DNA from: Williamsia sp.
Lineage (GTDB): Bacteria; Bacteroidota; Bacteroidia; Chitinophagales; Chitinophagaceae
DNA length: 64,000 nucleotides
Direction of reading: 5' to 3'
NCBI GenBank assembly: GCA_015069695.1
Contig: JADCRZ010000026.1
Location: 1-64,000 of the forward strand
Positions within the stretch are counted from its first letter, which is position 1; each line of letters opens with the position of its first letter. Under the pieces are notes generated by a model. It did no database searches, was not told the origin of the DNA, and saw nothing but the letters and a program-made list of their open reading frames with translations. Positions 45,221 to 64,000 of this stretch are shown here, piece after piece. The position numbers and the translations under genes are program-made.

Positions 45221-48200
45221 TCATTTAAATGGATTAAAAATATTAAAATTTGATACACCTCCAATGATAGACGAGATTAAAAAGGAGCTATTATTGACAA
45301 AGGAATTAAAGCTAGAAACTGCACCTTTAAATGTCGTAGCACCAAAATATTTCGCTTGCAACCAAGTATTCAAATTCTTTGTCTGAAAAAAGTGCTTCGA
45401 AATACCCCCTCCAATCCCTCCCCATAGTGCCGCATTCAAGGGGTTTGTTTTATGACACGGATCTACTAGATTTGCTAATTCTTGACCACCAGCACTACCA
45501 ACTCCAGATATTATCGATGAAGCGAATGAAGCCACTAATTGATTTGAGGCAAATCCTAATATTCTTGCTATACTACCACCTATGGGGCCTGCAACAGCGC
45601 CAACCCCTCCTGCAATAGCGCCATTTATTATAGCTGCAGCAATTTGTTTGTTAGAAATGTTTCCGTCATTGGCAATATAAGTAATAGCTAAATTAACCGC
45701 GGCTCCGATAACAGCACCTCCAATAATCCATATAAATCGGCCATCCTTATCAAAAGAATTTATGGGCTTATTATCTACATAGTTATACTGATTTAATCCT
45801 CCCTCTTCCTCAATCGGGTCACGATTTAACCACCTTCCTAAATTTGCGTCGTAAGCGCGATAGAGTGCCAAGTATAATCCACTCGCCGCATGATAATAGT
45901 GTCCCGTGAAACCTAAATCGGCATCCAGCGTTCCAGAAACCTTTGTCCTCCTGCCATACGGATCATAATCATACCGGACGACCACAACGCCATTCGTGTC
46001 CGTCATCTCGCGTACGGAACCAAGATGGTCGAAGGTGTAATAATACTTGCTGCCGTTGATCTGCTCGCCTTGCGCAAAGAACCGCTTGACGACTGTGCTT
46101 CCGCTTGCATCGCGTTCTTCGGCCAGTTCCGTGCCGTCCCAAAGCCACCGCCTGATGACGGCGCCGTTCAGCTTTTCGGCGACGCGCCGGCTTAAGCCGT
46201 CATAGACGAATTCGATGACGTTGGAGCCTTGCGTGATTTTCACCAGCCGGTCGGCGGCGTCCCAGCCATAGGTGGCGCCATGCAAGCTGGCGGAAACCGT
46301 ATTGCCGTTGGCATCATAAGTAAGCACGTTGTTATTGACCGGGTTGTTGACCGGCAATATCCCCTTGTTCCGTATCGTGTCGATATCCGTTTGCCTGGTT
46401 AGCTGGTTGAGGGAATTATATTCCGACAAGGTTATATGGTAGTCGGCATGTTCGCTCGTCCTGTTGCCCGCCGAATCATAACGGTAGGCGTATCTCGGCA
46501 GGATGGTTGTGGGGCTGACAAACTTGGTGGCGGCTTCTTGGGTCACGGAAAGCAACTGGTCGGCGGTGTCATAGACGAGGTCGTCCGTTTTCGGCGCGCT
46601 GCCGCTGACCTGTTTCGTCCATCTTGTGATTTGCGCCTGGGCGTTATATTCGTAATCGAATTTCGACAAGGTGTTGCCCCAGGGGGTTCTGTTCCACAGC
46701 TGCTTCAAGCGTTGGTCGCCTTTGTTGTCGAAATATTGAAAAAGCGTGCTGATGCCGTTCGGCATGGCGACCGACGCCAGCCTGTCCGTCTGGTTGACGT
46801 AGCCATAGGCAAAACGTCCCAAAATATTGGTGGCGGAGGTCACCCGGCCCAGGATGTCGAATTCCACCGAAGACGACACGCCGTTGATGGAACGTCCGCT
46901 GACGCGGCCAAGCGAATCGTAGCTATAAGCGATCAAGTCGTTGGCGAGCGGGCCATCGACCGAGGCCAGGGCGCCCGTTCCGAGCAGGGGAATGGTCAGT
47001 ACCGGGTTGTAGTTGTATGTCGTTTTGCCCGTGCCGTCGGTCATGGTAGCGATACGGTTATAACGGGTGTCGAAGGTATAAGAGACGGATGGCGTTGCAA
47101 CCAGGGCATTGGGATAAGCGATCTGTTTCAGGTTGCCGTCGTTAAAATAACTGTATTGCGTCTTTTGTTGCTTCTGGTCGGTGACTTCCTTCAAGCGGCT
47201 GGTGGTCTTCTCATACGCATATGAAACGGACTTGCCGTCATGGTAGGTTTTGGCGATCAGGCGGCTCTGCAGGTCATAGGTAAAGCTGGTGATATGCTTG
47301 AGCGGGTCGATGATCTGGGAGGGGCTGCCGCAATCGCACCAGCTGAGTTGCGTGACCCGGCCCAGCGCATCCTGGCTGGCGGTGACCCGGTCAAGAGAAT
47401 CGTAGATCGTATGCGACCACCTGCCCAGCCGGTCACGGCTATGAATGGCGTCAAGGCGGTCATAGACGATCTGTTCGTAAGAACTGTCGGGATAGGTGAC
47501 GATGGTGGGACGGTCGAGGGCGTCGTAATCGGTCGTGATCGTATAACCTTCGGGATCGGTCATCGTGCGGATGCGCCCGAAATCATCGTAAGTGAAATTC
47601 ATCGTGGTGCCGGGAACGGGGCCGCTGACGGATTTCAGGGTGCCATTGGCGTTATAGGCGAAATTCGTCGTTTCTTTTTTCGGGTTGGTGACGCTTAAGA
47701 GTTGCCCAGCCTGATTATAGGTAAAGCGTGTCAGCATACCTGAAGCATCGATGGCCGTGAGCGGGAGATACTGGCCGTTATACGTATATTTCGCCAGCAA
47801 TTCATTTGCCTGACCCGTGGTCTGGCAGATTTCAAGCAGGTTGATGTTGGTGGAATCGTAGAGATAGGTCGTCCTGCGGCCCGAAGGATCGGTGGCGCTC
47901 GTCACATTACCCAGCAGATTATAAGCGAAGCGGGTCAATTGGCTGGTACCGTCATCGAGAACGCGTCCAATGACCGAGGGCTGTGCAGACATGCCCAAAT
48001 TTGCCCTTACCGCGTCGCTTTGGTTCTGGTAAGCGTACCAAAGCCGGTTTTCCAAGGGTTCTTTCGTGCTTTCCAGGATGGGCGCGGCATATCCCTCTTC
48101 GCCCGGCTGGTAAGCGCCATGCAGCCAATGGTATATTTTTGCCTTCGTGTAGTCTCCTGGGGCTTCGCGCATCGCCTTTTTGTCCCAAAAGAAGGTATTG

Positions 48201-50362
48201 CGATACTGCATGTAATCGTTGTGGAAAATATTGTTACCGGTCGAGGGTGCGACGGTATCCGCAGACCCGATCTCGGGCGCACCTTCACGGTATTCCACCC
48301 GTTCTTTTTCTCCCAAAGGGTAATGGGTTTCCAGCACGGCGCCGCGCCCGTCGGTTCCGTCATCCTTGATGAAGGATGTCGTGCCGTAAGGCGTGGTCAT
48401 GCGGTCGATGAAATCGCCTTCCTGCTCGGCATAATGAAAGGAGGAAGACATGCCGATGACGTCGGTGATTTTTACCAGGCGCCCTTTGGAATCGTAGTCG
48501 AACGTCGCATATCTGCCGAAAGGATCGGTCACCTTCGCAATCTTATCGTCGTTATCACCGACATAGGACAAGGTCGTGACCTGACCGGTGGCATCGCGAA
48601 GTGCCGCAATCCTGAACCGGTCGCGGTCATAAGAGAGCGTGAGCCTGTTGCCGGCGATGTCGACGACTTCCGTCAGGAATATTTTTCGGCCGACGGACGT
48701 GTTGCCGTCGGGCCGCGCATAGATTTCTTTCGAACCGTCGGAATGGCGCAACTCGTAGCACGTGGCGCAGATGCGCACGAGGACATCGTTGCTTTGCATT
48801 TCAGGCGCATAGCTTTGCGTTCTGGCGTTGAACGACGTGAATGTCCTGAAGCCGCCGCCCATCAGGTAGATGTCGGCATTCGCCGAGAGATGTTTCGGAT
48901 CGTCCTGGATGTAAGACACGTAATTGAATGTCCATTTCGGCCCCAGATTGGAATAGCTGAAATTGGCGGGCTGGTAAGTATCCTTCTGGTGGTAATCGAC
49001 ATCGAAGACCATCGCCGGCCCGAGAGCGGGGACATAGGAAACCGGGCGGTCGAAAACATGCAGGCTGACGGCGCTGCCGTGCACGTTGCTTTGTGCCATG
49101 GGCGGCACAGGCGGTTCCAACGTGGAAGAGTTGCATTTCCCGGCACTGCCGCCCAAGGCAACGTTCTTCTTGCTGACGGCCCGGCCTATATCCACCAGCT
49201 GGTCGCCTTTGCCAAAGACGCTGCTGCCTTCGTTTTCGTCGACGCTCCGCCACCCTTTCGGCAAAGCGCCTGCCGGCACCAGGAAATATCCGCTGGCGCT
49301 GGAATCCAATGCAGCGGCAGACAGCCAGAATTGCTGGCCGTACGTCGTGCCCATCGTGGCGTCTTCACATTGATAATAGCCGCTGTCCTTGACAAGAAGA
49401 GTGCTGTAATGTCCAAGCTTCCAATGAATGACGGCATTGGCTATGACTTCGGCTCCGACTTCCCGGAAGGCCATTTGGTAGTTCAGGCCGATCTTCCGGG
49501 ACATGCCTTGCAGTTCGGCAAGAGAAAAACCTTTGGCCGTCGATTGAAGCTCCATAAGCTCCTTGCTGGAAAGATGCGCGCTATCCTGAAGAGAAAAAAG
49601 ATTGTTCAAGGCATAAGGGCCGCATTTGAAGGAATAGGCCGGTGTGGTTTTCATCCGGTGCAGGGCCTGGCGGATCAATACGATCCGTGTGACAGCCGGG
49701 CCTTCGATCATTCTATGATCGATCTCCGTCACCAGCGAATCCATCTTGTCTACCTCGCCGACCCAGGTGTGCATCATCAGCAGTTCCGAGACGACACGGT
49801 CGGCGAGATTTTTGAGCTTCGGTTCGTTTTGTTTTTTCAGAAGATCCCATGATTGCTGCCAAGCCTGCACTGCTTTGCTGAAATATCCGCTGCGGCGATA
49901 GACGAGACCCATATCGGCGAGGAGCGATCCGCGCCAGCGGCTATCCGGGTAGGAAACCAAAAAATTCAGCAGCGCGGAAAAATCATCCGGGCTTTTCCGC
50001 TGCGAGTAACCGGCAAGTGCATAAAGCAACGCCTGATTTTCTCCCGGTCTGGCAGCAACAGGCGAAGGAACCAATGGCTCTTCAAAAAAATGGATTTTGA
50101 AAATTTCTTCATCTGCCGGGTCTGTTGAAAAAGAAGCCGGAATGGCGTCCCCGGCAGAAAGAATATCCTTTGGCAGCGTTCGGTTTACAGTAACATTTTG
50201 CGGTGTACGTACCAGCTTGTAATTATCGGTCTGACCGGAAGTTGCAAAAAACAGGATCAGACCGAAGGCTGAGAACAAAAGTCTCTTGCCCGTCTTTTCT
50301 GTTACTGCAGGAAAAGAAAATAAACTGGAACCACTACCGGTATGCTTTGGAAATAACAGCAT
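45221..50362 (-). CDS. RHS-repeat protein with C39-like domain and variable C-terminal tip
   Basis: The 1713-aa protein begins with a probable signal segment (LLFSAFGLILFFATSGQT). A TPR-like helical part follows, then a papain/C39-like domain (FKCGPYALNNLF; its catalytic Cys near residue 245, and HYSTLLVKDSGYY near residue 315). Some 1,000 residues of RHS/YD repeats come next. The core ends at GRWLNRDPIEEEGGLNQYNYVDNKP near residue 1513. The last 200 residues form a glycine-rich hydrophobic tip (IIGGAVIGAAVNL and others) of unknown class. The DNA turns AT-rich around the end of the core. It is probably a polymorphic toxin. Confidence 0.85.
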   Translation of the reverse strand: MLLFPKHTGSGSSLFSFPAVTEKTGKRLLFSAFGLILFFATSGQTDNYKLVRTPQNVTVNRTLPKDILSAGDAIPASFSTDPADEEIFKIHFFEEPLVPSPVAARPGENQALLYALAGYSQRKSPDDFSALLNFLVSYPDSRWRGSLLADMGLVYRRSGYFSKAVQAWQQSWDLLKKQNEPKLKNLADRVVSELLMMHTWVGEVDKMDSLVTEIDHRMIEGPAVTRIVLIRQALHRMKTTPAYSFKCGPYALNNLFSLQDSAHLSSKELMELQSTAKGFSLAELQGMSRKIGLNYQMAFREVGAEVIANAVIHWKLGHYSTLLVKDSGYYQCEDATMGTTYGQQFWLSAAALDSSASGYFLVPAGALPKGWRSVDENEGSSVFGKGDQLVDIGRAVSKKNVALGGSAGKCNSSTLEPPVPPMAQSNVHGSAVSLHVFDRPVSYVPALGPAMVFDVDYHQKDTYQPANFSYSNLGPKWTFNYVSYIQDDPKHLSANADIYLMGGGFRTFTSFNARTQSYAPEMQSNDVLVRICATCYELRHSDGSKEIYARPDGNTSVGRKIFLTEVVDIAGNRLTLSYDRDRFRIAALRDATGQVTTLSYVGDNDDKIAKVTDPFGRYATFDYDSKGRLVKITDVIGMSSSFHYAEQEGDFIDRMTTPYGTTSFIKDDGTDGRGAVLETHYPLGEKERVEYREGAPEIGSADTVAPSTGNNIFHNDYMQYRNTFFWDKKAMREAPGDYTKAKIYHWLHGAYQPGEEGYAAPILESTKEPLENRLWYAYQNQSDAVRANLGMSAQPSVIGRVLDDGTSQLTRFAYNLLGNVTSATDPSGRRTTYLYDSTNINLLEICQTTGQANELLAKYTYNGQYLPLTAIDASGMLTRFTYNQAGQLLSVTNPKKETTNFAYNANGTLKSVSGPVPGTTMNFTYDDFGRIRTMTDPEGYTITTDYDALDRPTIVTYPDSSYEQIVYDRLDAIHSRDRLGRWSHTIYDSLDRVTASQDALGRVTQLSWCDCGSPSQIIDPLKHITSFTYDLQSRLIAKTYHDGKSVSYAYEKTTSRLKEVTDQKQQKTQYSYFNDGNLKQIAYPNALVATPSVSYTFDTRYNRIATMTDGTGKTTYNYNPVLTIPLLGTGALASVDGPLANDLIAYSYDSLGRVSGRSINGVSSSVEFDILGRVTSATNILGRFAYGYVNQTDRLASVAMPNGISTLFQYFDNKGDQRLKQLWNRTPWGNTLSKFDYEYNAQAQITRWTKQVSGSAPKTDDLVYDTADQLLSVTQEAATKFVSPTTILPRYAYRYDSAGNRTSEHADYHITLSEYNSLNQLTRQTDIDTIRNKGILPVNNPVNNNVLTYDANGNTVSASLHGATYGWDAADRLVKITQGSNVIEFVYDGLSRRVAEKLNGAVIRRWLWDGTELAEERDASGSTVVKRFFAQGEQINGSKYYYTFDHLGSVREMTDTNGVVVVRYDYDPYGRRTKVSGTLDADLGFTGHYYHAASGLYLALYRAYDANLGRWLNRDPIEEEGGLNQYNYVDNKPINSFDKDGRFIWIIGGAVIGAAVNLAITYIANDGNISNKQIAAAIINGAIAGGVGAVAGPIGGSIARILGFASNQLVASFASSIISGVGSAGGQELANLVDPCHKTNPLNAALWGGIGGGISKHFFQTKNLNTWLQAKYFGATTFKGAVSSFNSFVNNSSFLISSIIGGVSNFNIFNPFK

Positions 50363-51472: not shown

Positions 51473-51790
51473 AGAGTAAATCCTTAGTAAAAAGAGTAAC
51501 ATGCTTTAGTTATTTCTAGGTGATTTCAGGAAACGCCCGCTTGAAAATGCATAAAACCGCTGCATTCTTTTTCCTCGCTCAGGCATTATGAGACAAGGAG
51601 AAGTTTCTGCTCTTTGTAATATCTTATTCTCTGACAACGTTCTAAAAAATGGGCGCATGGGAAAGCTGGCAATTTTGTATGAAAATCACATGCGCCGACA
51701 ATGACCGTTGTCGCTTTTTTCAAGTTGGAATTTTAGATGGATTACGGGTGACAATTTCCTTAAATTTAGAATGCAACAATCAAAAGCAGC

Positions 51791-52579
51791 ATGCAGTACG
51801 AGGTGTCTTTCGCCGCCGACTTCAAGAATCTGACGAGCTACTTCCCCGAGTCCGAGGCAGATAGCCGTTTTTGCAATGGCTTTCATTCAAGTTGGATTGC
51901 CGAGAAGAATTGTGGCAAGCAGCCAATCAACTTCCTGAATCCGGCCACAGGGGGACAGACCTGGCGCTTCATGGAATGGGGCTGCCTGCCATTCAACTCG
52001 ACCGATCCACTTATCTCGTCCAGGAGATGGACATTCATGCTTCACACCCCGGCAGAACGTATTTTTGGCGACGTTAAAAGCTACTGGCACAGAATACGCG
52101 ATCAGCGCTGCCTGATACCTGCTAACGGCTTTTATATACAAGGAACGGTGCAAAACATGCAGCACGAAGTTCCATACTTCCTGCATGTTCCCGACCAACC
52201 GGTCTTCTTCTTGCCGGTACTGTATTCGACAGACGAGGCTCTCGACATGACAACTGGCCAGAAAACCCAACGCTGGGTATTTACAATGATCAGCAAGCCT
52301 GCCGACTGTCTGGCAAAGCATCTGGACTGCGATCAGGAAAAATCTACCACCATGCCCTTGCTGCTGCCCTTCTCCTTATCGCGCCATTGGCTTGACCATG
52401 ACCTGAATGAAGCCGATTACAGGTCTATCCTGGATTTTGAAATGTCATCCGAAGCATTGCAGGCATGGCCCATCTATAGTACGCAGCAGGAAGAACAAAG
52501 GCCGGATAACAAGGAAAAGAACGAACGGTTCGATTGGGAAAAACATGCCGCCGTTAACGTCGGGACGGCAATTTTTTAG
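51791..52579 (+). CDS. SRAP-family protein (YedK/HMCES-like) lacking the catalytic residues
   Basis: SRAP proteins bind and cross-link abasic sites in single-stranded DNA through a Cys at position 2, exposed after Met removal. This 262-aa protein keeps the fold landmarks: RFMEWGCLP, the strand order, QRCLIPANGFY, TQRWVFTMIS and TTMPLLLP. It begins MQYEVSF, with Gln instead of Cys2. The Asn of the NAxxE-type motif is replaced in LHTPAERIF. The Glu after DGFY is Ile (NGFYIQ), and no His is found before MP. It is thus predicted to be catalytically inactive. Confidence 0.72.
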   Translation: MQYEVSFAADFKNLTSYFPESEADSRFCNGFHSSWIAEKNCGKQPINFLNPATGGQTWRFMEWGCLPFNSTDPLISSRRWTFMLHTPAERIFGDVKSYWHRIRDQRCLIPANGFYIQGTVQNMQHEVPYFLHVPDQPVFFLPVLYSTDEALDMTTGQKTQRWVFTMISKPADCLAKHLDCDQEKSTTMPLLLPFSLSRHWLDHDLNEADYRSILDFEMSSEALQAWPIYSTQQEEQRPDNKEKNERFDWEKHAAVNVGTAIF

Positions 52580-53113: not shown

Positions 53114-53371
53114 ATGAGTAATTTTGCTTTTCCATTCATGCAAACTTTCTTATCCCTAAGCAAAGAAGCTCAATATGAGCTGCTTACCCAATTGGGTGAG
53201 ATTATCATCAATTCCAGACAGGGGTATATGACTACAGAGATTTACAAGTTAAAAGGTTTCTTCGTGAAAGTGACTGAAAATGATAACGGAACGAAAAAGA
53301 TCGAGGCTTTGCCAGACCTGGATAATCTTCAGCTAAACGAGATAAACCCTCAAGCATGCCTGGATGATTGA
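53114..53371 (+). CDS. Orphan small protein
   Basis: From the preferred ATG at 53114 the product is 85 aa (MSNFAFPFMQTFLSLSKEAQYELLTQLGEIIINSRQG). It is soluble, with a helical N-terminus and a beta-like middle. It starts 22 bases after a perfect palindrome likely to be its operator. Its end overlaps the convergent gene at 53350. Function unknown. Confidence 0.6.
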   Translation: MSNFAFPFMQTFLSLSKEAQYELLTQLGEIIINSRQGYMTTEIYKLKGFFVKVTENDNGTKKIEALPDLDNLQLNEINPQACLDD

Positions 53372-53616
53372 AAATTCATTTTCCGGTCGATCATAGCAAC
53401 GATGACAGGCACCATCTCTTTTACCCATCCAGGAACGTTTTGTGTAATATTTTGCCAGGTATTGTTCGTTTTCTTACACAAAACTACTTCACTGGTTGTT
53501 CCGTCTATAACGCTGACATTGAAATGGAAGCATCCCTGGTCATCGTCCTCCCTTCTTACATAGAGACAGACTTCTTTCCCGTGAAAGTTCATGAACTCTG
53601 TGAATCGTCTGAGCAT
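53350..53616 (-). CDS. Orphan small soluble protein
   Basis: The 88-aa minus-strand product (RRFTEFMNFHGKEVCLYVRREDDDQGCFHFNVSVIDGTTSEVVLCKK) has beta-strand-like composition and a W-containing C-terminus. The plus-strand ORF at 53368 in the same place is its shadow. It overlaps the upstream convergent gene by 22 bases. No family is recognised. Confidence 0.5.
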   Translation of the reverse strand: MLRRFTEFMNFHGKEVCLYVRREDDDQGCFHFNVSVIDGTTSEVVLCKKTNNTWQNITQNVPGWVKEMVPVIVAMIDRKMNFQSSRHA

Positions 53617-53781: not shown

Positions 53782-54693
53782 TCAGGGTTGCAGTCCTTTA
53801 AGATAATCGACAGCCTTAGACGCCTGACTGGCCGCTGAGATGATGTAGCAACCATCGTTTCTCAACACTTCCAGCCAGTGGCTGATATATGAGGCACGAT
53901 CCAGCGAAGGCGTGAGACTAATGCCCAGTTCGGCACAAAGGAATGCTGCACCTAGTTCGGCGATGAGTTCTTCTGTTGCGTAATTCTGGTCACCGAATTT
54001 CTTGCCTTTGGTTCTGTCGAGACGGTTTGCACTGCCGCTCCAGTGGATCAGTTCGTGGCTGAGCACCGCGTAATAGCTTTCTGTGGCTGTGCTCCATGAT
54101 CGATCGACAAAGGCTTTCTTCAAAGGCATGTTGATCTTGTCCTCCGACCGGTTGTAATGAGCCGAATAGCCGTTATGCTCAATGATGGCTTTGGTGTTAC
54201 CGATGAAAGCTTCGACGTGCTCGAGCCGCTCGACCAATGACACGGGGTTTTCTTCCTGCTTGGTTTCTTCGGGTGCATAGCTTTCCAACTGGCAGCGATT
54301 GAACACGAACGACGATTTCAGGAATGGTATTTTCTCGATTTCGCCGTCGACTTCTTTTTCGATGGTATCGTAATAAACGATCAGGGTGCCTTTTTCGCCC
54401 TTGTTGATCCGTTCTCCTTTTTGCGACCATTGCTTGAAGCTCGCCCATTCCTGCGTCGTCAATCCCTTGTTCATCGCCGATCCCCATAAGAGCAGGATGT
54501 TGATGCCGCGGTAATGATTACCGGTGACGAAGTTTTTGGGAATGTCCATGAAAAGCTGGTCTTTTCCGATCCAAGGCTTCTGCCAGGGAACCGTTCCGGC
54601 TTCGAGTTGTTTGATGATGGTGTCGGTGATCTGCTGGTAGAGGTCGTTCCGGTTTTGCTTGAACTCGATTTTGTTTTGAGAAGCGTTTTGCAT
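53782..54693 (-). CDS. ArdC-like antirestriction/ssDNA-binding protein with zincin domain
   Basis: The 303-aa protein has the ArdC N-terminal ssDNA-binding domain (DLYQQITDTIIKQLEAGTVPWQKPW; NHYRGINILLLWGS) and a C-terminal metallopeptidase-like domain with HELIHWSGSANRLDR near residue 212 and the glutamate-bearing ATEELIAELGAAFL. In conjugative elements it protects incoming ssDNA and blocks host restriction. It is the last gene of a minus-strand stability set. Confidence 0.88.
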   Translation of the reverse strand: MQNASQNKIEFKQNRNDLYQQITDTIIKQLEAGTVPWQKPWIGKDQLFMDIPKNFVTGNHYRGINILLLWGSAMNKGLTTQEWASFKQWSQKGERINKGEKGTLIVYYDTIEKEVDGEIEKIPFLKSSFVFNRCQLESYAPEETKQEENPVSLVERLEHVEAFIGNTKAIIEHNGYSAHYNRSEDKINMPLKKAFVDRSWSTATESYYAVLSHELIHWSGSANRLDRTKGKKFGDQNYATEELIAELGAAFLCAELGISLTPSLDRASYISHWLEVLRNDGCYIISAASQASKAVDYLKGLQP

Positions 54694-54940
54694 GATGTCC
54701 CTTCCTGTATGGGGTTGATGGTTGCAGGGATGGAAAAACCGGCGGCACCAGCGGCGGAACCTGGTGGAATTTTGGGCAGGGCGGGGAGCTTTTTGCTTTA
54801 AAAAGCGGCGAAAATTCTAATAGGTGGAGGAGCGCCGCCGGTTAAATCCCTGGCGACAACCATCGGCTCCATCCTTGCAGGAAGGGACTGCAAAACTTCG
54901 GCATCAAACGAGTTCAATAAACGCGGAATGCCTGCCCTTG

Positions 54941-55405
54941 TCAGAAATGCAAACCCTCGTCGGCAAAAGAGTAATAGGAGAACGGTGTCACGATCAGATG
55001 ATCCAGGACAGAAACGTCCAGCAGGGCACTCCCATCCTTCAACTTCTTCGTCAGGTCGATATCCGCCTGGCTCGGCTGCAAACTGCCGGAGGGATGGTTA
55101 TGGGCGAGGATGACGCTGGTGGCGCGGGCCTTGAGTACGGTGGCAAAAATGATTTTCGGATCGACGATGCAGGCGGAAATGCCCCCGCTCGAAATATCGG
55201 AGATACCAAGACAAGAATGGCCGCGATCGAGAAGCATGATCTTGAACTGTTCCACCAGTTCGATCCTGTTCATGTCCCATGCCTGCAAAAGCAAGCCGTA
55301 AGCAGAAAGGGAATCGGCGAGCTTGGGCCGGTCTTCGGGTCTGCGCTTGTTCCTGTACACCAATTCCACTTCGGTCACGGCGAACTGCGATGAGATGTCG
55401 TCCAT
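54941..55405 (-). CDS. RadC-like JAB-domain protein
   Basis: The 154-aa protein has the JAMM/JAB motif: a glutamate in VEQFKIMLLDR, then SVILAHNHPSGSLQPSQADIDLTKKL near residue 100. It is the short mobile-element form lacking the HhH N-terminus. It is probably a metalloenzyme or DNA-linked factor; its exact role is not established. It begins 8 bases after the Toprim-domain gene ends. Confidence 0.88.
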   Translation of the reverse strand: MDDISSQFAVTEVELVYRNKRRPEDRPKLADSLSAYGLLLQAWDMNRIELVEQFKIMLLDRGHSCLGISDISSGGISACIVDPKIIFATVLKARATSVILAHNHPSGSLQPSQADIDLTKKLKDGSALLDVSVLDHLIVTPFSYYSFADEGLHF

Positions 55406-55413
55406 ATCAGCTC

Positions 55414-56322
55414 CTATAAAGAAAGGCCGAGCTTGGCCATGCGCCAGGCATTCAAGTCTTTATGCGGTGCGTAGATCGCGTTCATGGGCCGGTGCTGCAG
55501 GCAGTCCTGCGTCTTGCAGAATTCGCCCAGAATATTCGTTGCGCTCTCGCCGGCCTTGTCGTTGTCCAGCCAGGCATAGGCGATGCGGTAGCCGTAATTC
55601 TGGATGTAAGGCGTGGCTTTTTTCAGACAGGATAAGGAATGCAGGATGATGCAGTCGTCTTCGAAACGTTCGCCGCCCCTTTCTGCGGCGATGGACAAGT
55701 AATCGAAGCTGCCTTCGAACAGATTGATCCCTTCAGGCTTAGGCTTGGTGCCGCGAATGAAGGTGATGGATTTGTGGCCGACCGAACCCTTGAAAAACGG
55801 GTTCCTGATTTCGTAGCCCTCATCTTCATTCGGCATGCCGAGGGCAAAAAAGGTTTTATTCGTTTCCGTATTGAGAACACGCACTTCCTTTAAATATTGC
55901 TGGCCAATCTTGAGAGGAATGCCGCGCTTGTCCAGATATTGCATGAGCGCCGGGTGCTCAATTTTTTTCTTGTCTCGCAAGATCAGCTTGGCTTCTTCTT
56001 TGGTGCAATCGACGGTTCGGGATGGAATAAGATTTGGAACACTGCCGGTCATGTTTTTCAGCCAGCGCAAAGCATCCGGCACCAGGCAAGCCTCACGCTG
56101 GCTTTCCAGGTAGGCACAGGCAAAACCGATGACGGAGCCCCCTCTGCCCGTTCCGTGGTCATACCAGAGGTTTTTGAGATTGTGGACATGAAAGCTGGGC
56201 GTCCGCTCCGCTCGCAAAGGGGAGAGGTAAATAGAACGATGCGGTTTCACCTGGATGGGGGAATAACCGATTTTCTCTAAAATCAGGGCGAGCGGGATCA
56301 TTCTCGCCTGTTCGATGTTCAT
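55414..56322 (-). CDS. DUF3991/Toprim-domain protein
   Basis: The 302-aa protein opens with a DnaG zinc-domain-like fold (IEQARMIPLALILEKIGYSP...ERTPSFHVHNLKNLWYDHGTGRGGSVIGFACAYL), but the usual Cys/His zinc ligands are not evident. A Toprim-like region follows with the E (LFEGSFDYLSI) and DxD-type (YAWLDNDKAG) acidic motifs. It is probably a primase-type protein for element replication or transfer. Confidence 0.82.
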   Translation of the reverse strand: MNIEQARMIPLALILEKIGYSPIQVKPHRSIYLSPLRAERTPSFHVHNLKNLWYDHGTGRGGSVIGFACAYLESQREACLVPDALRWLKNMTGSVPNLIPSRTVDCTKEEAKLILRDKKKIEHPALMQYLDKRGIPLKIGQQYLKEVRVLNTETNKTFFALGMPNEDEGYEIRNPFFKGSVGHKSITFIRGTKPKPEGINLFEGSFDYLSIAAERGGERFEDDCIILHSLSCLKKATPYIQNYGYRIAYAWLDNDKAGESATNILGEFCKTQDCLQHRPMNAIYAPHKDLNAWRMAKLGLSL

Positions 56323-56386
56323 GGCGAATCTCCGATAAAAGAATGGATTTGGGCTAAAGCAGGAAAGCGGCGTTGCGGCGCAGCGC

Positions 56387-56575
56387 TTACTTGGCTTTCA
56401 ACTGGCTTTCGAGGAACTGGTCGAGAAAGCACTGGCGATAACGCACCGACCTGCCGATCTTGAGCGGCTTCAAATCATAGCGTTTCGTGCAATCCCAGAC
56501 GGCCAGGGTCGCCGGTGAGACGCTCAAATATTTTGCCGCCGTTTTACGATCCATCAATGGCTTGTCCATCAGCAC
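56387..56575 (-). CDS. AlpA-like HTH/excisionase-type protein
   Basis: The 62-aa protein is an HTH_17 domain (MLMDKPLMDRKTAAKYLSVSPATLAVWDCTKRYDLKPLKIGRSVRYRQCFLDQFLES). Such proteins regulate integrase genes or act as excisionases. It heads the minus-strand set that includes Toprim, RadC and ArdC genes. Confidence 0.85.
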   Translation of the reverse strand: MLMDKPLMDRKTAAKYLSVSPATLAVWDCTKRYDLKPLKIGRSVRYRQCFLDQFLESQLKAK

Positions 56576-56965
56576 TCCTTATCTGGTTGGTGAGAACCAA
56601 CCATAGGATGTCTTGATGATCAAATACAAAAAATCTGTAGTGATATAAAGCAATTAATAAGCATAAATCACCATTAATTTGATTTTGTGAATTATGCTTT
56701 TCTATTTTTTTGCATATGAATTTTACGATCAGCTTGAGGCAAGGCTCATTGTTTAATTCGCAGAAAAATTCATGTCATTTGGGTTTTTATAACGAGCATT
56801 TCGTTTCTGATAAAAATCGGAACTGAAAGCGACACCGCAATCGCGACTTTAAAGAAACAGCAATTGAAAGTTTTTACGACAATACCTGATGATTGGTTCA
56901 ATGATGTGTCATGGGCACCAATATTTTTGGTAATGACAATTTTACAATGTTATACTTTGCGTGAC
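56576..56965. other. AT-rich regulatory region upstream of the AlpA-like gene
   Basis: No gene is seen. A dyad gcataaatcac (56661-56671) / gtgaattatgc (56687-56697) matches at 10 of 11 positions around 15 bases and would be a good operator for the minus-strand set. Confidence 0.5.
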
Positions 56966-57226
56966 CTATTCAATCAGCGAAGCGGGAACCAGGTAAAATG
57001 ATCCTACCTTGCGGATGACGTTTGCTTTCTCAGACTTATCGTAGGAGTAAGTTTGGCCTCGTTCCTTCACCACGCTTTCAGCTCGTTGTTTCTCTCGGAA
57101 AACACTTACAAATTCATATTCTCCAGGGCTGTCGCCATAATCGAATATCCGGTTGTTTCGCAGAGGTATATAAACCTTGCGGCACTTCGTCATGATCAGA
57201 TTTTTGTCCATAAATGCTCCTTCCAA
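56966..57226 (-). CDS. Orphan small protein
   Basis: The 86-aa charged product (MEGAFMDKNLIMTKCRKVYIPLRNNRIFDYGDSPGEYEFVSVFREKQRAE) has no known domain; a later Met at residue 6 may be the true start. It is in an AT-rich gap before the AbiE pair. Confidence 0.5.
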   Translation of the reverse strand: MEGAFMDKNLIMTKCRKVYIPLRNNRIFDYGDSPGEYEFVSVFREKQRAESVVKERGQTYSYDKSEKANVIRKVGSFYLVPASLIE

Positions 57227-57400
57227 TAATTTAGATTATTTGATTTGTAGATAGCATGTCAATTCCTATTTGGGAATTTATTCAGAAATGAATACACGGA
57301 AAACTGCTGACTTAGTCTCAATAATCCAAACGGATTGAAACATAAAACATTGATAGATAATTATTTAATAATTAGGTTTGCATGAATTTTAAATAATTCT

Positions 57401-57433
57401 TCTTGCATTTTAAGAGTAAAAATGCTAAATTTG
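57401..57433 (+). promoter_or_regulatory. Promoter of the AbiE operon
   Basis: taaatttg at 57426-57433 fits the TAnnTTTG -7 element with a TTG near 57401 as -33. The AbiEi ATG is 16 bases after the -7 box. Confidence 0.6.
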
Positions 57434-57449
57434 CCTAATAGGAAGCGAC

Positions 57450-58049
57450 ATGACACGACTTAATGACCTAAAAAAACACCTGAAGAGGGGTCAAGTTTAT
57501 CGTCGTACTGATTTAGCCCAGTGGTCTAAATCAGTCGATCGACATATCGAATACTTGGTCAAAGAAGGGACACTCCAAAAGCTATCTCAAGGGTTATATT
57601 ATTTCCCCAAAGAAACGGCATTCGGTACGGTGCCTCCCCATGAGGAAGATTTGGTTCGCAGCTTTCTCAAGGATGATCGGTTTCTTCTCACCTCTTTAAA
57701 TGCGTATAACAGTTTGCAAGTGGGCACAACGCAACTATACAACACAAGAACGGTTTACAACCGCAAACGGCATGGCGAATTCAAATTGGGAAACAAGAGA
57801 TTTGAGTTTCGGATAAAGCCTCATTTCCCCCGAAAAGCAACTGAAGAGTTTTTGCTGGTTGATCTTGTCAACAATCTGGAAACGCTTGCCGAAGACCGGC
57901 AGGAAGTTTTCAAGAATATCGCCTCCAAAATCAAAATGATGGATGCTAGAAAGCTCGAACGTTCCTTAAAAGAGTATGGCAGTGCCAAAGCAAAAAAGCT
58001 TCTCACGCCGTTATTGGAAAAATCTGGCTCTGGATCATATGTCTCTTAA
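57450..58049 (+). CDS. AbiEi-like antitoxin (type IV toxin-antitoxin, DUF6088)
   Basis: The 199-aa protein has an N-terminal winged HTH (LNDLKKHLKRGQVYRRTDLAQWSKSVDRHIEYLVKEGTLQKLSQGLYYFP) and a C-terminal helical domain. It overlaps the toxin gene by 11 bases. AbiEi proteins repress the operon and counter the AbiEii nucleotidyltransferase toxin. A Bacteroidota promoter sits just upstream. Confidence 0.85.
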   Translation: MTRLNDLKKHLKRGQVYRRTDLAQWSKSVDRHIEYLVKEGTLQKLSQGLYYFPKETAFGTVPPHEEDLVRSFLKDDRFLLTSLNAYNSLQVGTTQLYNTRTVYNRKRHGEFKLGNKRFEFRIKPHFPRKATEEFLLVDLVNNLETLAEDRQEVFKNIASKIKMMDARKLERSLKEYGSAKAKKLLTPLLEKSGSGSYVS

Positions 58050-58995
58050 TTATCTGCATCATCATAAGGATTTTCCTGAACTTCTACGCATTCTGGAAGA
58101 TGAAACCGGAATACAAGCCGGATTGATCGAGAAGGATTACTGGATCATGCATGTTTTGCATGGATTGAAAAAGCAAGGTTTTGAATTCCATTTAAAAGGC
58201 GGCACTTCGTTATCCAAGGGGTACAAGATCATCGACCGCTTTTCGGAAGACATCGATATATACATCAAGCCGCCGTCAGGAAGAAACGTCAATGAAAACC
58301 CCCGAAGCACCAAAATCAATAGCGTTCAATCGAGAAAAGACTTCTATGACTGGCTGGCCGAAGAAATAAAGATTGATGGCATAGTAAAGGCGGAACGCGA
58401 CCATGCTTTCGACGACCCGAAATATTACAGAAGCGGGGGGATCAGGCTGGTTTATGAAAGTTCCACTGGCTCGATAGCGGGCGTCAAAGAGGGTATCCTG
58501 CTAGAAGTGGGGTTTGATACCGTTACACCTGGCAATACGCTCACAATAAGTTCCTGGGCATATGACAGGGCAGTCGGCGTCACCGCCCTCTCTTTTTTAG
58601 ATAACAGGGCAAAAGATATTTCCTGTTATCATCCAGGATACACTTTTGTCGAAAAGCTCCAGACCATTGCAACGAAGTTCAGGCAGGAACAAAGCGATGG
58701 TGTCAAACGGCCTAACCTTATGAGGCAGTACTACGATGTCTGCAGCTTGTTGAACGATCCTCTGGTTCAGGAATTCATCGGGACTGAAGAATACAAAGTT
58801 CATAAGCAGGAAAGATTTCCTCCCGCTGATTTGGTTGTTCCTATAGCCGAAAACGAAGCTTTTTTGCTTGGTGCGCCTGAATTAAGGGCTGAGTTTAAGA
58901 AAAGATACAAAGAAACCGCCGCACTTTACTACAAAGGACAACCCGATTTCAATGAATTGCTCAATAGGCTAAAAGAATATGTTGATAGATTATAA
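58039..58995 (+). CDS. AbiEii nucleotidyltransferase toxin
   Basis: The ATG at 58039 gives 318 aa (MSLNYLHHHKDFPELLRILEDETG); the track ORF begins earlier inside the antitoxin. The nucleotidyltransferase core has HLKGGTSLSKGYKIIDRFSEDIDIYI, i.e. the GGTSLSKGY and acidic DID motifs. It would add nucleotides to RNA, halting growth under stress such as phage infection. It pairs with the upstream AbiEi-like antitoxin. Confidence 0.88.
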   Translation: MSLNYLHHHKDFPELLRILEDETGIQAGLIEKDYWIMHVLHGLKKQGFEFHLKGGTSLSKGYKIIDRFSEDIDIYIKPPSGRNVNENPRSTKINSVQSRKDFYDWLAEEIKIDGIVKAERDHAFDDPKYYRSGGIRLVYESSTGSIAGVKEGILLEVGFDTVTPGNTLTISSWAYDRAVGVTALSFLDNRAKDISCYHPGYTFVEKLQTIATKFRQEQSDGVKRPNLMRQYYDVCSLLNDPLVQEFIGTEEYKVHKQERFPPADLVVPIAENEAFLLGAPELRAEFKKRYKETAALYYKGQPDFNELLNRLKEYVDRL

Positions 58996-59212
58996 GCTGG
59001 GTTATCCGGGAGAATTAATAAAAAGATCTTCAATCCTTGCATATTAAAAGCTTCTGCCTGTTTAGACTTTGCAATACTCCTTCATGGCTTTTATCTATTA
59101 TATACCGTTTTATTTAAGGTCAACTTCAGTTTGCTAAGTGTTGAATCAAGATTAGTATAACAATCATCAGAGGCATGTTTTCAAAATCATCTTCCTAAGC
59201 AACAACGAATTG

Positions 59213-59425
59213 ATGGAAAGGGAATTAATGAAGGAATCCATCCTAGATAATGACAAGCTAGAACAAGCATACATCATCATGTCGAGAATTATCCGAGATC
59301 ATGGGAGCAAGTATCTTCTTGTCTTCCAGCGGCTGCATGAAGAAAAGCTGACGAGAAAACAACAACAGAATTTAACGCAAATCGCTTTACAAGCAGCAGC
59401 AAAGCCGTTAGAATGTGAAATGTGA
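59213..59425 (+). CDS. Small helical protein, orphan
   Basis: From the ATG at 59213 the 70-aa product is helical and charged (EQAYIIMSRIIRDHGSKYLLVFQRLHEEKLTRKQQQNLTQIALQAA). It lies between the AbiE pair and the integrase. Function unknown. Confidence 0.5.
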   Translation: MERELMKESILDNDKLEQAYIIMSRIIRDHGSKYLLVFQRLHEEKLTRKQQQNLTQIALQAAAKPLECEM

Positions 59426-59430
59426 TGCTG

Positions 59431-59674
59431 CACACAAAATTGAGTAGTGTTTTTCACACAAAAGAAAAGCTGGAATTCAATAAGCGCCTAAAAAGAAATA
59501 TAAACATTCTATTGTGGAGAATGAAACATGCGCTCACCCCTTCCGCCAGTTTTACCCCCCTTGACTGGCATTTATCCCTTTAAACTGAAACATATTTTTG
59601 CGTTTTTCGCCCAGGCGCATTTGTTACTGTGTTTTAATTCCGGCTGTTTTCTCACACAAATCCTCACACAAAAG
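59431..59674 (+). promoter_or_regulatory. Four CACACAAA repeats upstream of the integrase
   Basis: cacacaaaa/t occurs at 59431, 59455, 59653 and 59665, all on the plus strand, in two pairs about 200 bases apart. Their clustering before the integrase gene suggests arm-type integrase binding sites of an att region. Confidence 0.5.
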
Positions 59675-59685
59675 CGGTTTTTGTC

Positions 59686-60966
59686 ATGAAACACCTGATA
59701 AAGATTAACGGTTATTTTTACTACAATCGGCGTGTTCCGAACGAAGTGCGCGACCTTGATCCACGCAACATCGTGCGGGTCTCCCTCAAAACTGAAAGCC
59801 GCGACCAAGCGCAGCGCAAGGCTGTCATTTTAAACGACCAGATCGAAAGCTACTGGCAAACGTTGCTGGACGACGGTATGCGCCATGACGACCGCCGGTT
59901 TGCAAGAACGATCTGTATCGCCCGGCAGATGGGTTTTTCTTACCAGCCTATGGCCAAGGTGGCAGCGTTACCTATCGAGGAACTGCTGGAACGTATTCTG
60001 GCTTTACGTGATGGTACGTCCAAGCAGGTCGAAGCCCTGCTCGGAGGAAGGCCGGAGCCCGAACTCTCCGTAAAAGCCGCTTTAGAAAAGTTTTGGGGAT
60101 TTTCGAAGGAGCGCATGATGAACAAAACCCCGGATCAAATCCGGAAATGGAAAAATCCACGGATCAAAGCGGTGGAAAATTTCATCGCTGTCATCGGAAA
60201 CAAAGACCTGAAAGCCATTACCAGAGAGGATATTTTGGCGTTCCGCGACTGGTGGCTGGGCCGCATCCAACAGGATGGCAAGAATCCGGGCAGCGCCAAC
60301 AAAGATTTTATTCACTTCAAGAACGTCTTGGAGACCGTATCCGACAACATGAAGCTGAGTCTGGATACTCCTTATCTGTTTAAAAAGATAGTCCTGAAAA
60401 CCCGTTTTAAACAGACTCGCCGGCCATTCTCGACAGACCAGATCATCAAAATTTTGGAAAGCGACAAGTTAAACAATCTCAATTCCGAAGCGAAGTGGTT
60501 TCTATACGCGGCGGCAGAAACCGGCGCACGTCCCTCTGAAATTGTGGGTTTGTTACCTGAAGACATTAAATTGAATGCTGATATACCTCATATTTGCATC
60601 ATGGATCGAAAAGAGAGAACTCTTAAAACACCACATAGCCAGAGGACAATTCCCCTCATTGGCTATGCGCTGGAAGCATTCCAGAATATGCCGCACGGCT
60701 TTCCCCGATATCGAGATAAACCGGATAACCTTACCAACGCCGTAAATCAGTTCCTGAGACAAAATGACCTATTGCCTTCGGATCAACATAGCACCTATTC
60801 GTTTAGGCATAGTTTTCAGGACAGAATTTTGAGCGTGAACATGCCAGATCGTATTCAGGCAGAATTAATGGGGCATAAATTTGGCAGGCCTGTTTATGGG
60901 GATGGAGCATCACTGCTGCAAAAATCAGAATGGTTGCACAAAATACAAGTGAAATGTAGTTCTTAA
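59686..60966 (+). CDS. Tyrosine recombinase/integrase (DUF6538-type N-terminus)
   Basis: The 426-aa protein begins with the DUF6538-like segment IKINGYFYYNRRVPNEVRDLDPRNIVRVSLKTES. SAM-like core-binding helices follow, then the catalytic domain with arginine in TGARPSEI near residue 282, YSFRHSF near 372, LMGHKFG near 395 and the nucleophile Tyr in PVYGDG near 405. The first His of the usual HxxR motif is Tyr here. It is the likely integrase of the island, though it lies 29 kb from the left edge. Confidence 0.88.
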   Translation: MKHLIKINGYFYYNRRVPNEVRDLDPRNIVRVSLKTESRDQAQRKAVILNDQIESYWQTLLDDGMRHDDRRFARTICIARQMGFSYQPMAKVAALPIEELLERILALRDGTSKQVEALLGGRPEPELSVKAALEKFWGFSKERMMNKTPDQIRKWKNPRIKAVENFIAVIGNKDLKAITREDILAFRDWWLGRIQQDGKNPGSANKDFIHFKNVLETVSDNMKLSLDTPYLFKKIVLKTRFKQTRRPFSTDQIIKILESDKLNNLNSEAKWFLYAAAETGARPSEIVGLLPEDIKLNADIPHICIMDRKERTLKTPHSQRTIPLIGYALEAFQNMPHGFPRYRDKPDNLTNAVNQFLRQNDLLPSDQHSTYSFRHSFQDRILSVNMPDRIQAELMGHKFGRPVYGDGASLLQKSEWLHKIQVKCSS

Positions 60967-61693
60967 TTTGTAATACTGAATTACTCCTATCCCGAGCCGG
61001 CTTCCATTTTCGAGTTCTTACCCTTTGTTTTTGCCTGAATTATTTTGAGGCTTTTCGAAGCGATGCCCCTAGTCTTGTCCCCTACTGCAAATTACAAAAC
61101 ACGATGCCATACTGGCGTCCAAAAAACAATGTTCCATTTCAAGATTTGAATTGCTGCCAACTCTGACATAAATAGTTTTGGCCGCTTATACCTTTAAGAT
61201 AAGTGGCCAAAACTGGTTTAATCTGTGTAATTGATACCCAGGGACATCGTCGTCAGACAAGCAAAAAGTCATCCAATCTGCTTTTGCGAATTTGAATTTT
61301 CTAAGATCAAGCGCTTTCCGACGAGAAATACATTCGGCTTTGCAGGACGTTTTAAATAAGGGTCTCCTCAAGTAATGTCAGTGATTCCAGTGAGCGCGTC
61401 CATAGCGACGGCCATTGATCAAGATTTTGTGGTGCTTGTCGATTGACACTCTCTCTATCATTTGATCAGATTTCATGACGTGGCAAAATCCGTTCTCTGT
61501 GGTTGATCTGTGACAAATGCATTTCACATAAACGTCTAGCGTTTTTTCCGTTCTCATAAATTAGGAAATACTGACGGCAACATAAATGCCAATAAGTTTT
61601 AAAGCCAAAAGCTCGAGTTCTGCTTATCTTTCAAATCAAGTTATCTGTATATTCTAGGGTGGACGCACCTTTGTATGGAAGAATAGTTCATTT
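60967..61693. other. Non-coding gap after the integrase
   Basis: No gene above background is seen in 727 bases. A 61-aa minus-strand ORF at 61186-61371 lacks support. The right boundary of the integrase-bearing element might lie here, but no copy of the tRNA-Leu 3' half or direct repeat was found. Confidence 0.4.
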
Positions 61694-62155
61694 TTATCTT
61701 ACCTCGATCTTGCACTTATTTAATATATTTCTAGGAAAACTATTTTTCCCTATTTTATGTCCAAGAGTTCCGTCGGAACCTTTAACGGAATATTCTTTAT
61801 TGGGAACACGAGCTGCACTGATCCATTCAACTTCATCCAGACAGTCGTTTAAGATAATTTTCAACTCCTCATAGTTTAAGCATACCACCCCATCTTCCCC
61901 ACAGACCAACAAGATAAAAACGTCGTCCATCGACAACTTCATCTTTTCAATTTCTGCCTGGTGTTTTTTTAGCATGCTAAATCGCCATGGCGACATTCTT
62001 TTTGTGGAATGTTTGATGTAAAGCCCAACTTTATCATTTAACACGTATGACGCGTTACTTGATGTTGTAAAACAGGCGATATAAAGTGGGGTTTTACTTT
62101 CGTGAATAAGTCTTGAAAAAACAACGCCATGATAAAAGTCGAATTCCTTTATCAT
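61694..62155 (-). CDS. Conserved-looking partner of the Z1 protein
   Basis: The 153-aa soluble protein contains LYIKHSTKRMSPWRFSMLKKHQ and DDVFILLVCGEDGVVCLNYEELKIIL. I recall similar proteins next to Z1-domain genes in restriction-like operons, but no search was run. Its start overlaps the Z1 stop (ATGA), so it is the next gene of the same operon. Its role is inferred from this context only. Confidence 0.7.
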   Translation of the reverse strand: MIKEFDFYHGVVFSRLIHESKTPLYIACFTTSSNASYVLNDKVGLYIKHSTKRMSPWRFSMLKKHQAEIEKMKLSMDDVFILLVCGEDGVVCLNYEELKIILNDCLDEVEWISAARVPNKEYSVKGSDGTLGHKIGKNSFPRNILNKCKIEVR

Positions 62156-64000
62156 TTCGGTGAAGTTTTCAAAAATCTGACGTTTCCTTCGTATTTATAA
62201 AAGATTCGAGCTTTATTAGATTCATTGTACAAAACATTTATGTGGTGGACTGCGTCTGGGTATTTATCCTTTTCGAGTTCTCGATTACCAATAAAGCCTC
62301 TACTACGTGTGATAGTGGCCTTATCCAACTCGCCTAATTTATCTTTATAACCAGCGATAGACTTTGGCAAATGAACTGCCACCGAAGAGTTTCCTGTGGG
62401 GAGAAAACTTTCGATGAAGTTTATTAAGTAGTCTGGAAATACTTCTTGACCCAAAAAATGGGATAACTTTTTGATTTTTTGAATTGGTGATTCAGTCCCC
62501 TTGATTATGCCCGTGATTGCGACCTCATCTAGGTCAAAAATTGCAAAGCTCATCTCTCCTCTGTCAACTGCAACGTTTGTTTTATCTATGCTATTGCTAG
62601 CTACGGCAGTGATTCTATCACCATCTAGCCAAACAGGAGAGGTCTCGCTTTGTTTTCTCGACTCTAATGAAAGGCGATGAAAAATAAAACATTTTTGCCA
62701 GTCTAGATACAAGGATTTAGGTATAGTCAGTTCAAAATATTTAAGATAACTATTTCTACTGCCAAACATCCTCGCGCGTTGAATATAAGTATCCTGCTGC
62801 AATTTATGTTGAACATCCCTAGTAAAAAACATTGAAAGAAGATTGTTGAAAGTAACACCTCTTGAAACAATATTTCCCCCAATTATAACAGTGAAAGGAG
62901 CTGTTGGATCGGTTGCAGTTCTATTATCGGCTGCATTCACTTCCTTATCACTATTCATTACCACCAAATTGTTCCTGTCGCAATTAACAATGATGTATTT
63001 TATAATTTGGTTTTCATGTCCGGGGTAGCGGGCCTTCGCTATCTCCCAAATGCGGAGGTAGTATTTTTGGTGATTTGTGTTATTTTCATCCTTCAAGGCT
63101 TCGAATACCTTTACAATTAGCTTATAATCAACGACGTGATCAGCTTTTTTACCACTTGTATGGATTAATAAAGAATAATTTTTTTCTTCTTCATTAATGC
63201 TCGAATTTAGATAGGAAGCATTTACCATGAAGCTGAAAAGAGTCTCTCTTATATACTTTGGATTATCGCCATGATCAGGTAAAAAAGTAAGCGTATAAGG
63301 TAAATTACTTAAATCAATTGGAAAAAATACATCTTGACCGGTATAATTTTGGTGTGCTGGAAAATCAACCCAATGTTCGTTTTGATTTTGATGCGTTTTA
63401 TTTAAATCCAATCTCGCTGGTGTCGCTGTTACACCAATATATATTCCGTCTTTTCCGATTATATCCTCTGTAAGTTTATTAATTTTACTTTTTTCACGTT
63501 TGTTTATTTTAGAATTCGGAGTCGCATAGTCAGCCTCATCATCAATAATTACTATTTCTCTCTTCTTGTTTAATTTGTTTATTAGTTTCTGGAGGTCTTT
63601 GGAATTTTTTTTGCAAAAGATTACCCATTGGTGCTCCCCTATCTTTATTTCAGGCGATAGTATTTCATTGAACTTTTTTGGTGAAGGCGACAATCCAGAT
63701 CGTTGAAATCTGTCGAGATTCTGCCCTAACAGTTGGACGCTGTCATTCAAAAGCACTACAATTATTTTAAAGTTTTCGTCTAACAATTTAGCTGTTAGCG
63801 CAATCATCATTTCAGTTTTCCCACTCTGAGGTTCGCCGTAGATTACAAAAGATTTTTTATTCTTTTTGATATTCTCAATTGCATCGTTAACAACGGACTC
63901 AATACGGCCAGTTTCTTGTTTGCTCGCAACTAACTTGGCTAACCGTCGCTCATAACGGTTGTTACTTGCTGTTTGCTCTTTTAATCCAGGTAAATTAAGC
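62152..64000 (-). CDS. Z1-domain P-loop protein (helicase-like), truncated by window end
   Basis: The track ORF starts at 63810, but the frame stays open to the window edge: GEPQSGKTE directly before MMIALTAK is a Walker A, and ESVVNDAIENIKKNKKSFVI precedes it. The gene therefore begins beyond 64000. A DEAD-type box (IVIIDDEADYAT), GVTATPARLD and a Z1-like C-terminal half (GGNIVSRGVTFNNLLSMFFTR) are seen. Z1 proteins occur in MORC-type ATPase/methyltransferase restriction systems. The rest of the operon should lie outside the window. Confidence 0.85.
   Translation of the reverse strand, partial: LNLPGLKEQTASNNRYERRLAKLVASKQETGRIESVVNDAIENIKKNKKSFVIYGEPQSGKTEMMIALTAKLLDENFKIIVVLLNDSVQLLGQNLDRFQRSGLSPSPKKFNEILSPEIKIGEHQWVIFCKKNSKDLQKLINKLNKKREIVIIDDEADYATPNSKINKREKSKINKLTEDIIGKDGIYIGVTATPARLDLNKTHQNQNEHWVDFPAHQNYTGQDVFFPIDLSNLPYTLTFLPDHGDNPKYIRETLFSFMVNASYLNSSINEEEKNYSLLIHTSGKKADHVVDYKLIVKVFEALKDENNTNHQKYYLRIWEIAKARYPGHENQIIKYIIVNCDRNNLVVMNSDKEVNAADNRTATDPTAPFTVIIGGNIVSRGVTFNNLLSMFFTRDVQHKLQQDTYIQRARMFGSRNSYLKYFELTIPKSLYLDWQKCFIFHRLSLESRKQSETSPVWLDGDRITAVASNSIDKTNVAVDRGEMSFAIFDLDEVAITGIIKGTESPIQKIKKLSHFLGQEVFPDYLINFIESFLPTGNSSVAVHLPKSIAGYKDKLGELDKATITRSRGFIGNRELEKDKYPDAVHHINVLYNESNKARIFYKYEGNVRFLKTSPK

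Follow-up and report, generated by a model that had tools for sequence, protein, structure and literature searches.

A four-copy family of SRAP proteins lacking the catalytic residues in a single Bacteroidota genome

Within a 64,000-nucleotide stretch of a Bacteroidota genome (hereafter "the window"), we found a gene whose product is, by sequence and modelled fold, a true member of the SRAP homology family, yet carries replacements at every position involved in SRAP chemistry. The initial observation on this gene was confirmed and turned out to be larger than first stated, as the window protein is not a single oddity but one of a family of four copies (hereafter "Q2 proteins", all with Gln at position 2). 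We consider it probable that this family consists of SRAP proteins put to a new use as non-catalytic scaffolds, most likely for binding a protein or ligand, and that it is now partly decaying. As SRAP proteins are defined by an absolutely conserved Cys (PMC3765255), Q2 would represent a rare case in which the SRAP fold was retained after the enzyme died. No paper describing SRAP pseudoenzymes was found in the literature searched, from which subscription journals were mostly absent.

Loss of the SRAP active site

The SRAP profile PF02586 scored 57.3 bits on the window protein (cut-off 27.1, E = 2.1e-15), and a sequence search matched it to PDB entry 2f20 (BT_1218) at 1e-12. An AlphaFold2 model based on 10 sequences reached moderate confidence (mean pLDDT 73.6, pTM 0.75), and all 19 PDB structures matching the modelled fold at E ≤ 0.001 were SRAP entries, including BT_1218, YedK with and without DNA, and HMCES (best match: 2f20, 9.5e-13). 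The suggestion, made in a first-pass annotation, that SRAP landmarks are present and the fold is kept is thus supported by both the profile and the model, and places Q2 proteins in the same homology family (PF02586) and fold as YedK of E. coli and human HMCES.

To locate the active-site positions, the window protein was aligned with YedK (from NC_000913) and about 68 SRAP relatives (Table 1; YedK numbering). Relative to YedK, Cys2 is replaced by Gln2, Asn75 by His85, Glu105 by Ile116, and His160 by Asp179, along with Arg77 by Pro87 and Arg162 of the "RMP" motif by Thr187. The same positions are substituted in all four Q2 paralogs, with His or Tyr for Asn75, Ile or Val for Glu105, Asp, Ala, Cys, or Arg for His160, Pro or Ser for Arg77, and Thr or Pro for Arg162. 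The four copies thus all lack equivalents of Arg77 and Arg162, and additionally lack an Arg that is 98% conserved among catalytic relatives and corresponds to Trp80 in the window protein. Out of 49 columns conserved at ≥90% in 51 catalytic relatives, 23 were kept in all four Q2 proteins and 14 were lost in all four, the latter including Cys2, Asn, Glu, His, the RMP Arg, and the Arg turned Trp80. The probability that all five chemistry columns would fall among the 14 lost columns by chance is p = 0.001. The earlier reading of the active site (Gln for Cys2, a replaced catalytic Asn, Ile instead of the Glu following GFY, no His ahead of the MP motif, and hence all four chemistry positions lost) therefore held in every detail, although it had overlooked the loss of Arg77 and Arg162 and the change to Trp80.

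Table 1 Features of the Q2 locus (window coordinates)
Feature	Coordinates	Strand	Basis
Conserved upstream box GTAATATCT-N10-CAACGTTCT	51616..51643	+	147 bases from box to ATG
Q2-type SRAP pseudoenzyme gene	51791..52579	+	262 aa; ORF and translation, PF02586 2.1e-15, paralogs, tree
Codon 2, Gln for catalytic Cys2	51794..51796	+	Alignment; Gln in 4/4 paralogs, Cys in 51/51 catalytic relatives
Codon 80, Trp for Arg 98% conserved among catalytic relatives	52028..52030	+	Column comparison
Codons 85-87, His-Thr-Pro for Asn-Ala-Arg (YedK Asn75, Arg77)	52043..52051	+	Alignment
Codon 116, Ile for catalytic Glu105	52136..52138	+	Alignment
Codons 179-187, Asp for His160, Thr for Arg162 (His...RMP)	52325..52351	+	Alignment
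Module gene B, divergent orphan ORF upstream, 128 aa	51004..51390	-	Counterpart on C149 at matching position and orientation, 33% identical
Module gene C, orphan ORF downstream, 95 aa	53084..53371	+	46-53% identical homologs beside C150 and C149 Q2 SRAPs
Module gene D, orphan ORF, 88 aa, overlapping end of C	53350..53616	-	Homolog next to the C149 copy of gene C, 57% identical

Wrong start codons are generally possible in automatic annotation, and an ordinary SRAP could in principle be restored by another start or another alignment, in which case the residues would not truly be lost. In the window copy, however, no ATG, GTG, or TTG lies between the upstream in-frame stop and the annotated ATG (TAG AAT GCA ACA ATC AAA AGC AGC ATG), leaving no upstream in-frame start that would yield Met-Cys, and all four Q2 copies share an N-terminus of the same type, MQ(H/Y)E. 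Similarly, the alignment was unambiguous at the Glu and His positions and revealed no catalytic residues elsewhere in the protein: the one nearby candidate, His177, is not conserved among the paralogs (Gln, His, Arg). We thus consider an ordinary SRAP hidden by misannotation to be extremely improbable.

Origin and distribution of the Q2 family

Five SRAPs are encoded in the genome (7.66 Mb across 222 contigs, 99.3% complete), namely four Q2 proteins and one canonical SRAP on contig C24 which begins with MCYDISF and retains every catalytic residue. The Q2 copies are found on contigs C141 (window), C146, C150, and C149, with mutual identities of 58–69% (58–61% between the window copy and the other three). 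In a maximum-likelihood tree of 80 SRAPs, the four Q2 proteins formed a single clade (support 100/100) nested deep within catalytic Chitinophagaceae SRAPs and carried on a long stem of 0.97 changes per site, while the canonical SRAP of the same genome branched elsewhere. The sister group (support 99/89) consists of two catalytic SRAPs from genome G174 (L019 and L101), also of the MCYDISF type and 37–39% identical to Q2 proteins, which retain the Cys2, Asn, Arg, Glu, His, and Arg that Q2 copies lack. Since the same residues are lost in all four copies, this loss must have preceded the duplications. The sequences show that an ancestral catalytic Chitinophagaceae-type SRAP lost Cys2, Asn75, Arg77, Glu105, His160, and Arg162 together along one long branch, after which duplication of the dead SRAP took along its upstream box and, for three of the four copies, a small neighbor gene (gene C, see below).

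The bacterium is probably a member of Chitinophagaceae, as G188, a genome of the same family, shares its SRAP with Filimonas zeae. No Q2 protein was found among the 249 genomes of this family and 399 genomes of the same order sampled, with the comparison at the genus level consisting of one other genome, 84% complete. Likewise, no Q2 relative was found among 21 pattern matches on viral contigs, and the SRAPs detected on plasmids and phages were only distant (≤29% identity), none being of the Q2 type. The dead SRAP form is thus so far known only from the present genome, and because no copy was found outside of it, long-term vertical conservation cannot be claimed.

Selection and possible decay

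Because the residue losses are shared by the Q2 copies, purifying selection detected between these copies acted after the chemistry was lost. Pairwise omega values between Q2 copies, which are averages obtained with synonymous sites near saturation, ranged from 0.10 to 0.19 (Nei–Gojobori) and from 0.14 to 0.23 (maximum likelihood, 2ΔlnL of 55–81 against omega = 1), compared to maximum-likelihood values of 0.046–0.073 for canonical SRAP pairs without synonymous saturation. Consistently, the two intact Q2 copies differ at 65, 48, and 117 sites for the first, second, and third codon position, respectively, a significant excess at the third position (p = 5e-8). These data extend the initial proposal of a retained fold, as they show that the protein was maintained following the loss of chemistry. 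The former His160 position meanwhile appears to be drifting freely, with four different residues across the copies.

Only two of the four copies (window and C146) are intact over their full length, while the other two are broken at their 3′ end: in C150, codon 235 is an in-frame TAG past which homology still extends, and in C149 the reading frame shifts near codon 209, although both breaks could also stem from assembly errors. These breaks, together with a Q2 omega three to four times the canonical SRAP value and the lack of Q2 genes in the family and order genomes sampled, would fit a family that was recently useful and is now turning into pseudogenes, with the window and C146 copies being the last to break. 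Full decay is however difficult to reconcile with two copies intact at full length, omega values clearly <1 in all pairs including those involving the window copy, and an upstream box perfectly preserved in all four cases, and the possible assembly errors would remove part of the evidence for it. On balance, we view this explanation as conceivable but rather unlikely. The repurposed scaffold remains our preferred reading. Q2 copies stayed under a purifying selection that is real but relaxed relative to catalytic SRAPs, with two of the four now truncated or frameshifted and decay possibly under way.

Genomic context of Q2 genes

The window Q2 gene (A) is part of a small module ordered B(−)-A(+)-C(+)-D(−), in which all other genes are orphan ORFs (Table 1). 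The same B-A-C-D order is repeated on C149, where two inserted FtsX-like genes separate A from C, while C150 retains the A-C pair. Genes B, C, and D had no family match above cut-offs in Pfam and further family searches. Within this genome, homologs of gene C were found only next to Q2 SRAPs (window, C150, and C149; L009:8018-8440 and L010:15353-15601), and the relatives detected elsewhere in the family, in two genomes (L117, L118), were too weak to be used, at 28–33% identity over about 60 residues. On its other side, the module adjoins a 1713 aa RHS/YD-repeat-like protein (45221–50362, − strand).

Downstream of the module lies a mobile/defence island, covering positions 53782–64000 of the window and extending to 69.4 kb of contig C141 (L113). 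It includes ArdC, RadC, a Toprim primase, HTH_17, AbiEi/AbiEii, and a DUF6538 integrase. Further along, it carries a Z1 helicase/HATPase/N4/N6 methyltransferase set and, neighboring a tRNA-Leu at contig position 69.5 kb, an Arm-DNA-bind_5 integrase. A search for attachment repeats yielded no convincing pair, with no repeat longer than 13 bases between the left side and this integrase/tRNA-Leu end.

The first-pass annotation had placed the SRAP gene itself on a mobile element, for which we found no support. Homology to the chromosomal copy of the module ends at about 53654, i.e., before the ArdC/RadC/Toprim/integrase block begins at 53782, and no integrase was seen near the C146, C150, and C149 copies. 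The chromosomal module is repeated on contigs without integrases, and the window SRAP most likely lies beside a mobile element rather than on it.

SRAP genes are expected in an SOS-type setting alongside UmuC or LigD (PMC3765255), and the sister catalytic SRAPs of G174 indeed lie near UmuC or LigD genes. Unlike YedK/HMCES-type SRAPs, Q2 genes occur in neighborhoods without repair genes: a Pfam search detected no UmuC, DinB, ImuB, Ku/LigD, or LexA around the window copy, and inspection by eye revealed no SOS or repair genes around the C146, C150, and C149 copies. Family-level labels such as "SOS response-associated peptidase" would mislead when applied to Q2 proteins.

Beyond gene content, the Q2 loci share a conserved upstream box with the four-gene consensus GTAATATCT-N10-CARCGTTCT, separated from the ATG by 145–148 bases. 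With ≤3 mismatches allowed, a scan of the 7.66 Mb genome retrieved this box at only four sites, one upstream of each Q2 gene, and the box region includes a conserved run of 9 in the four-way alignment (p = 0.001 by shuffling). Q2 genes may thus be expressed from their own conserved control region. One half of the box, CGTTCTAAA (51638–51646), is matched in Q2 copies by an inverted counterpart, TTTAGAA(C/T)G (51765–51773), some 17 bases ahead of the start codon. In the leader RNA consensus, CGTTCTAAA pairs with TTTAGAACG near the start codon, although this helix varies on one side only and received no covariation support. The two elements may represent either an operator pair or a leader stem.

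Possible function of Q2 proteins

In YedK, Cys2 forms the thiazolidine while Glu105 and His160 perform acid-base catalysis, and when Cys2 is missing the N-terminal amine can take over, provided that Glu105 is present (PMC9436759). In Q2 proteins, all of the cross-linking chemistry residues and pocket arginines of YedK/HMCES are replaced. Methionine aminopeptidase leaves Met1 in place when Gln occupies position 2, and Gln2 should thus prevent residue 2 from being exposed. Since Cys2, Glu105, and His160 are all absent and Met1 would be kept, abasic-site catalysis by Q2 proteins is very unlikely, and a thiazolidine cross-link to abasic DNA would be impossible with neither an N-terminal Cys nor an acid-base Glu/His.

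Whether Q2 proteins could still bind DNA is a separate question. The first-pass annotation had proposed a non-covalent binder of single-stranded DNA or abasic sites which would compete with the canonical host SRAP, and both the retained fold and the fact that YedK variants with blocked chemistry still bind DNA (PMC9436759) are compatible with this idea. However, two conserved arginines on the pocket rim have been predicted as likely DNA contacts (PMC3765255), which based on their spacing we equate with YedK Arg77 and Arg162, and none of the four copies retains either of these equivalents or the 98% conserved Arg that corresponds to Trp80. DNA-binding mutants are known for the matching arginines of HMCES, but were given no weight here. 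The window protein also carries a net charge of −10, compared to a mean of −2.5 for the 51 catalytic relatives, albeit with a wide range among these (−20 to +8). Finally, Q2 copies do not travel on conjugative elements, and their absence from the plasmids, phages, and viral contigs searched further weakens the proposed competition. Because both pocket arginines are lost, a canonical DNA grip is doubtful, Q2 proteins would probably lack the ability to hold single-stranded DNA in the SRAP groove, and we consider a role as DNA-binding competitor improbable. Taken together, the pseudoenzyme part of the initial interpretation stands, while its mobile-element part does not and its competitor part is unlikely.

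Among positive readings, the remaining constraint on the body of the fold best supports binding or scaffolding, in which the folded SRAP body would act as a non-catalytic scaffold for a protein partner, or for another ligand in the emptied pocket. Possible partners include the product of the co-duplicated gene C as well as the canonical SRAP or repair machinery, with the former being the best candidate since gene C was found only beside the Q2 family. More broadly, natural SRAPs with the fold but without the active site allow binding to be told apart from chemistry, and their partners and phenotypes would reveal whether SRAP has a non-catalytic function.

Other SRAP pseudoenzymes in Bacteroidota

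Across 70 further Bacteroidota SRAPs surveyed, 61 displayed Cys2. The survey also included a separate pseudoenzyme clade starting with MSDR(F/Y)V, with members in five genomes of one other Bacteroidota genus (L179, L184, L185, L188, and L189, from G796, G699, G830, G818, and G633, respectively). In these proteins, position 2 is Ser, Asn75 is replaced by Glu, Ile, Val, or Ala, Glu105 by Lys in all five, and His160 by Asp or Gly. The MSDR and Q2 clades have both lost Cys2, Asn75, Arg77, Glu105, and His160, but unlike Q2 the MSDR clade has its own position in the tree, a Lys at Glu105, and a retained Arg162. It is also under a much stronger constraint than Q2, with omega values of 0.016–0.07 for pairs where these could be estimated. 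One of the five genomes (G633) encodes a canonical SRAP (L121) besides its MSDR protein.

Given this separate MSDR clade, the sequences indicate that the SRAP fold has lost its chemistry more than once in Bacteroidota. A broader but more tentative scenario would be that Q2 acts without catalysis as a regulator or adaptor, teamed with the small gene C product and governed by a control region of its own, that it has multiplied in one lineage, and that together with the MSDR clade it reflects a repeated reuse of the SRAP fold in pseudoenzymes. If true, SRAP pseudoenzymes would be comparable in this respect to pseudokinases.

Further single SRAPs without some or all of the chemistry residues were observed at L063:4818-5501, L066:4707-5531, L174, L062, L088, L097, and L099, among which the L063 and L066 proteins, both from MAGs, lack Cys2, Glu, and His. 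In the MSDR clade, the Lys lies in what was the abasic-site pocket, where its formation of Schiff bases is conceivable in principle.
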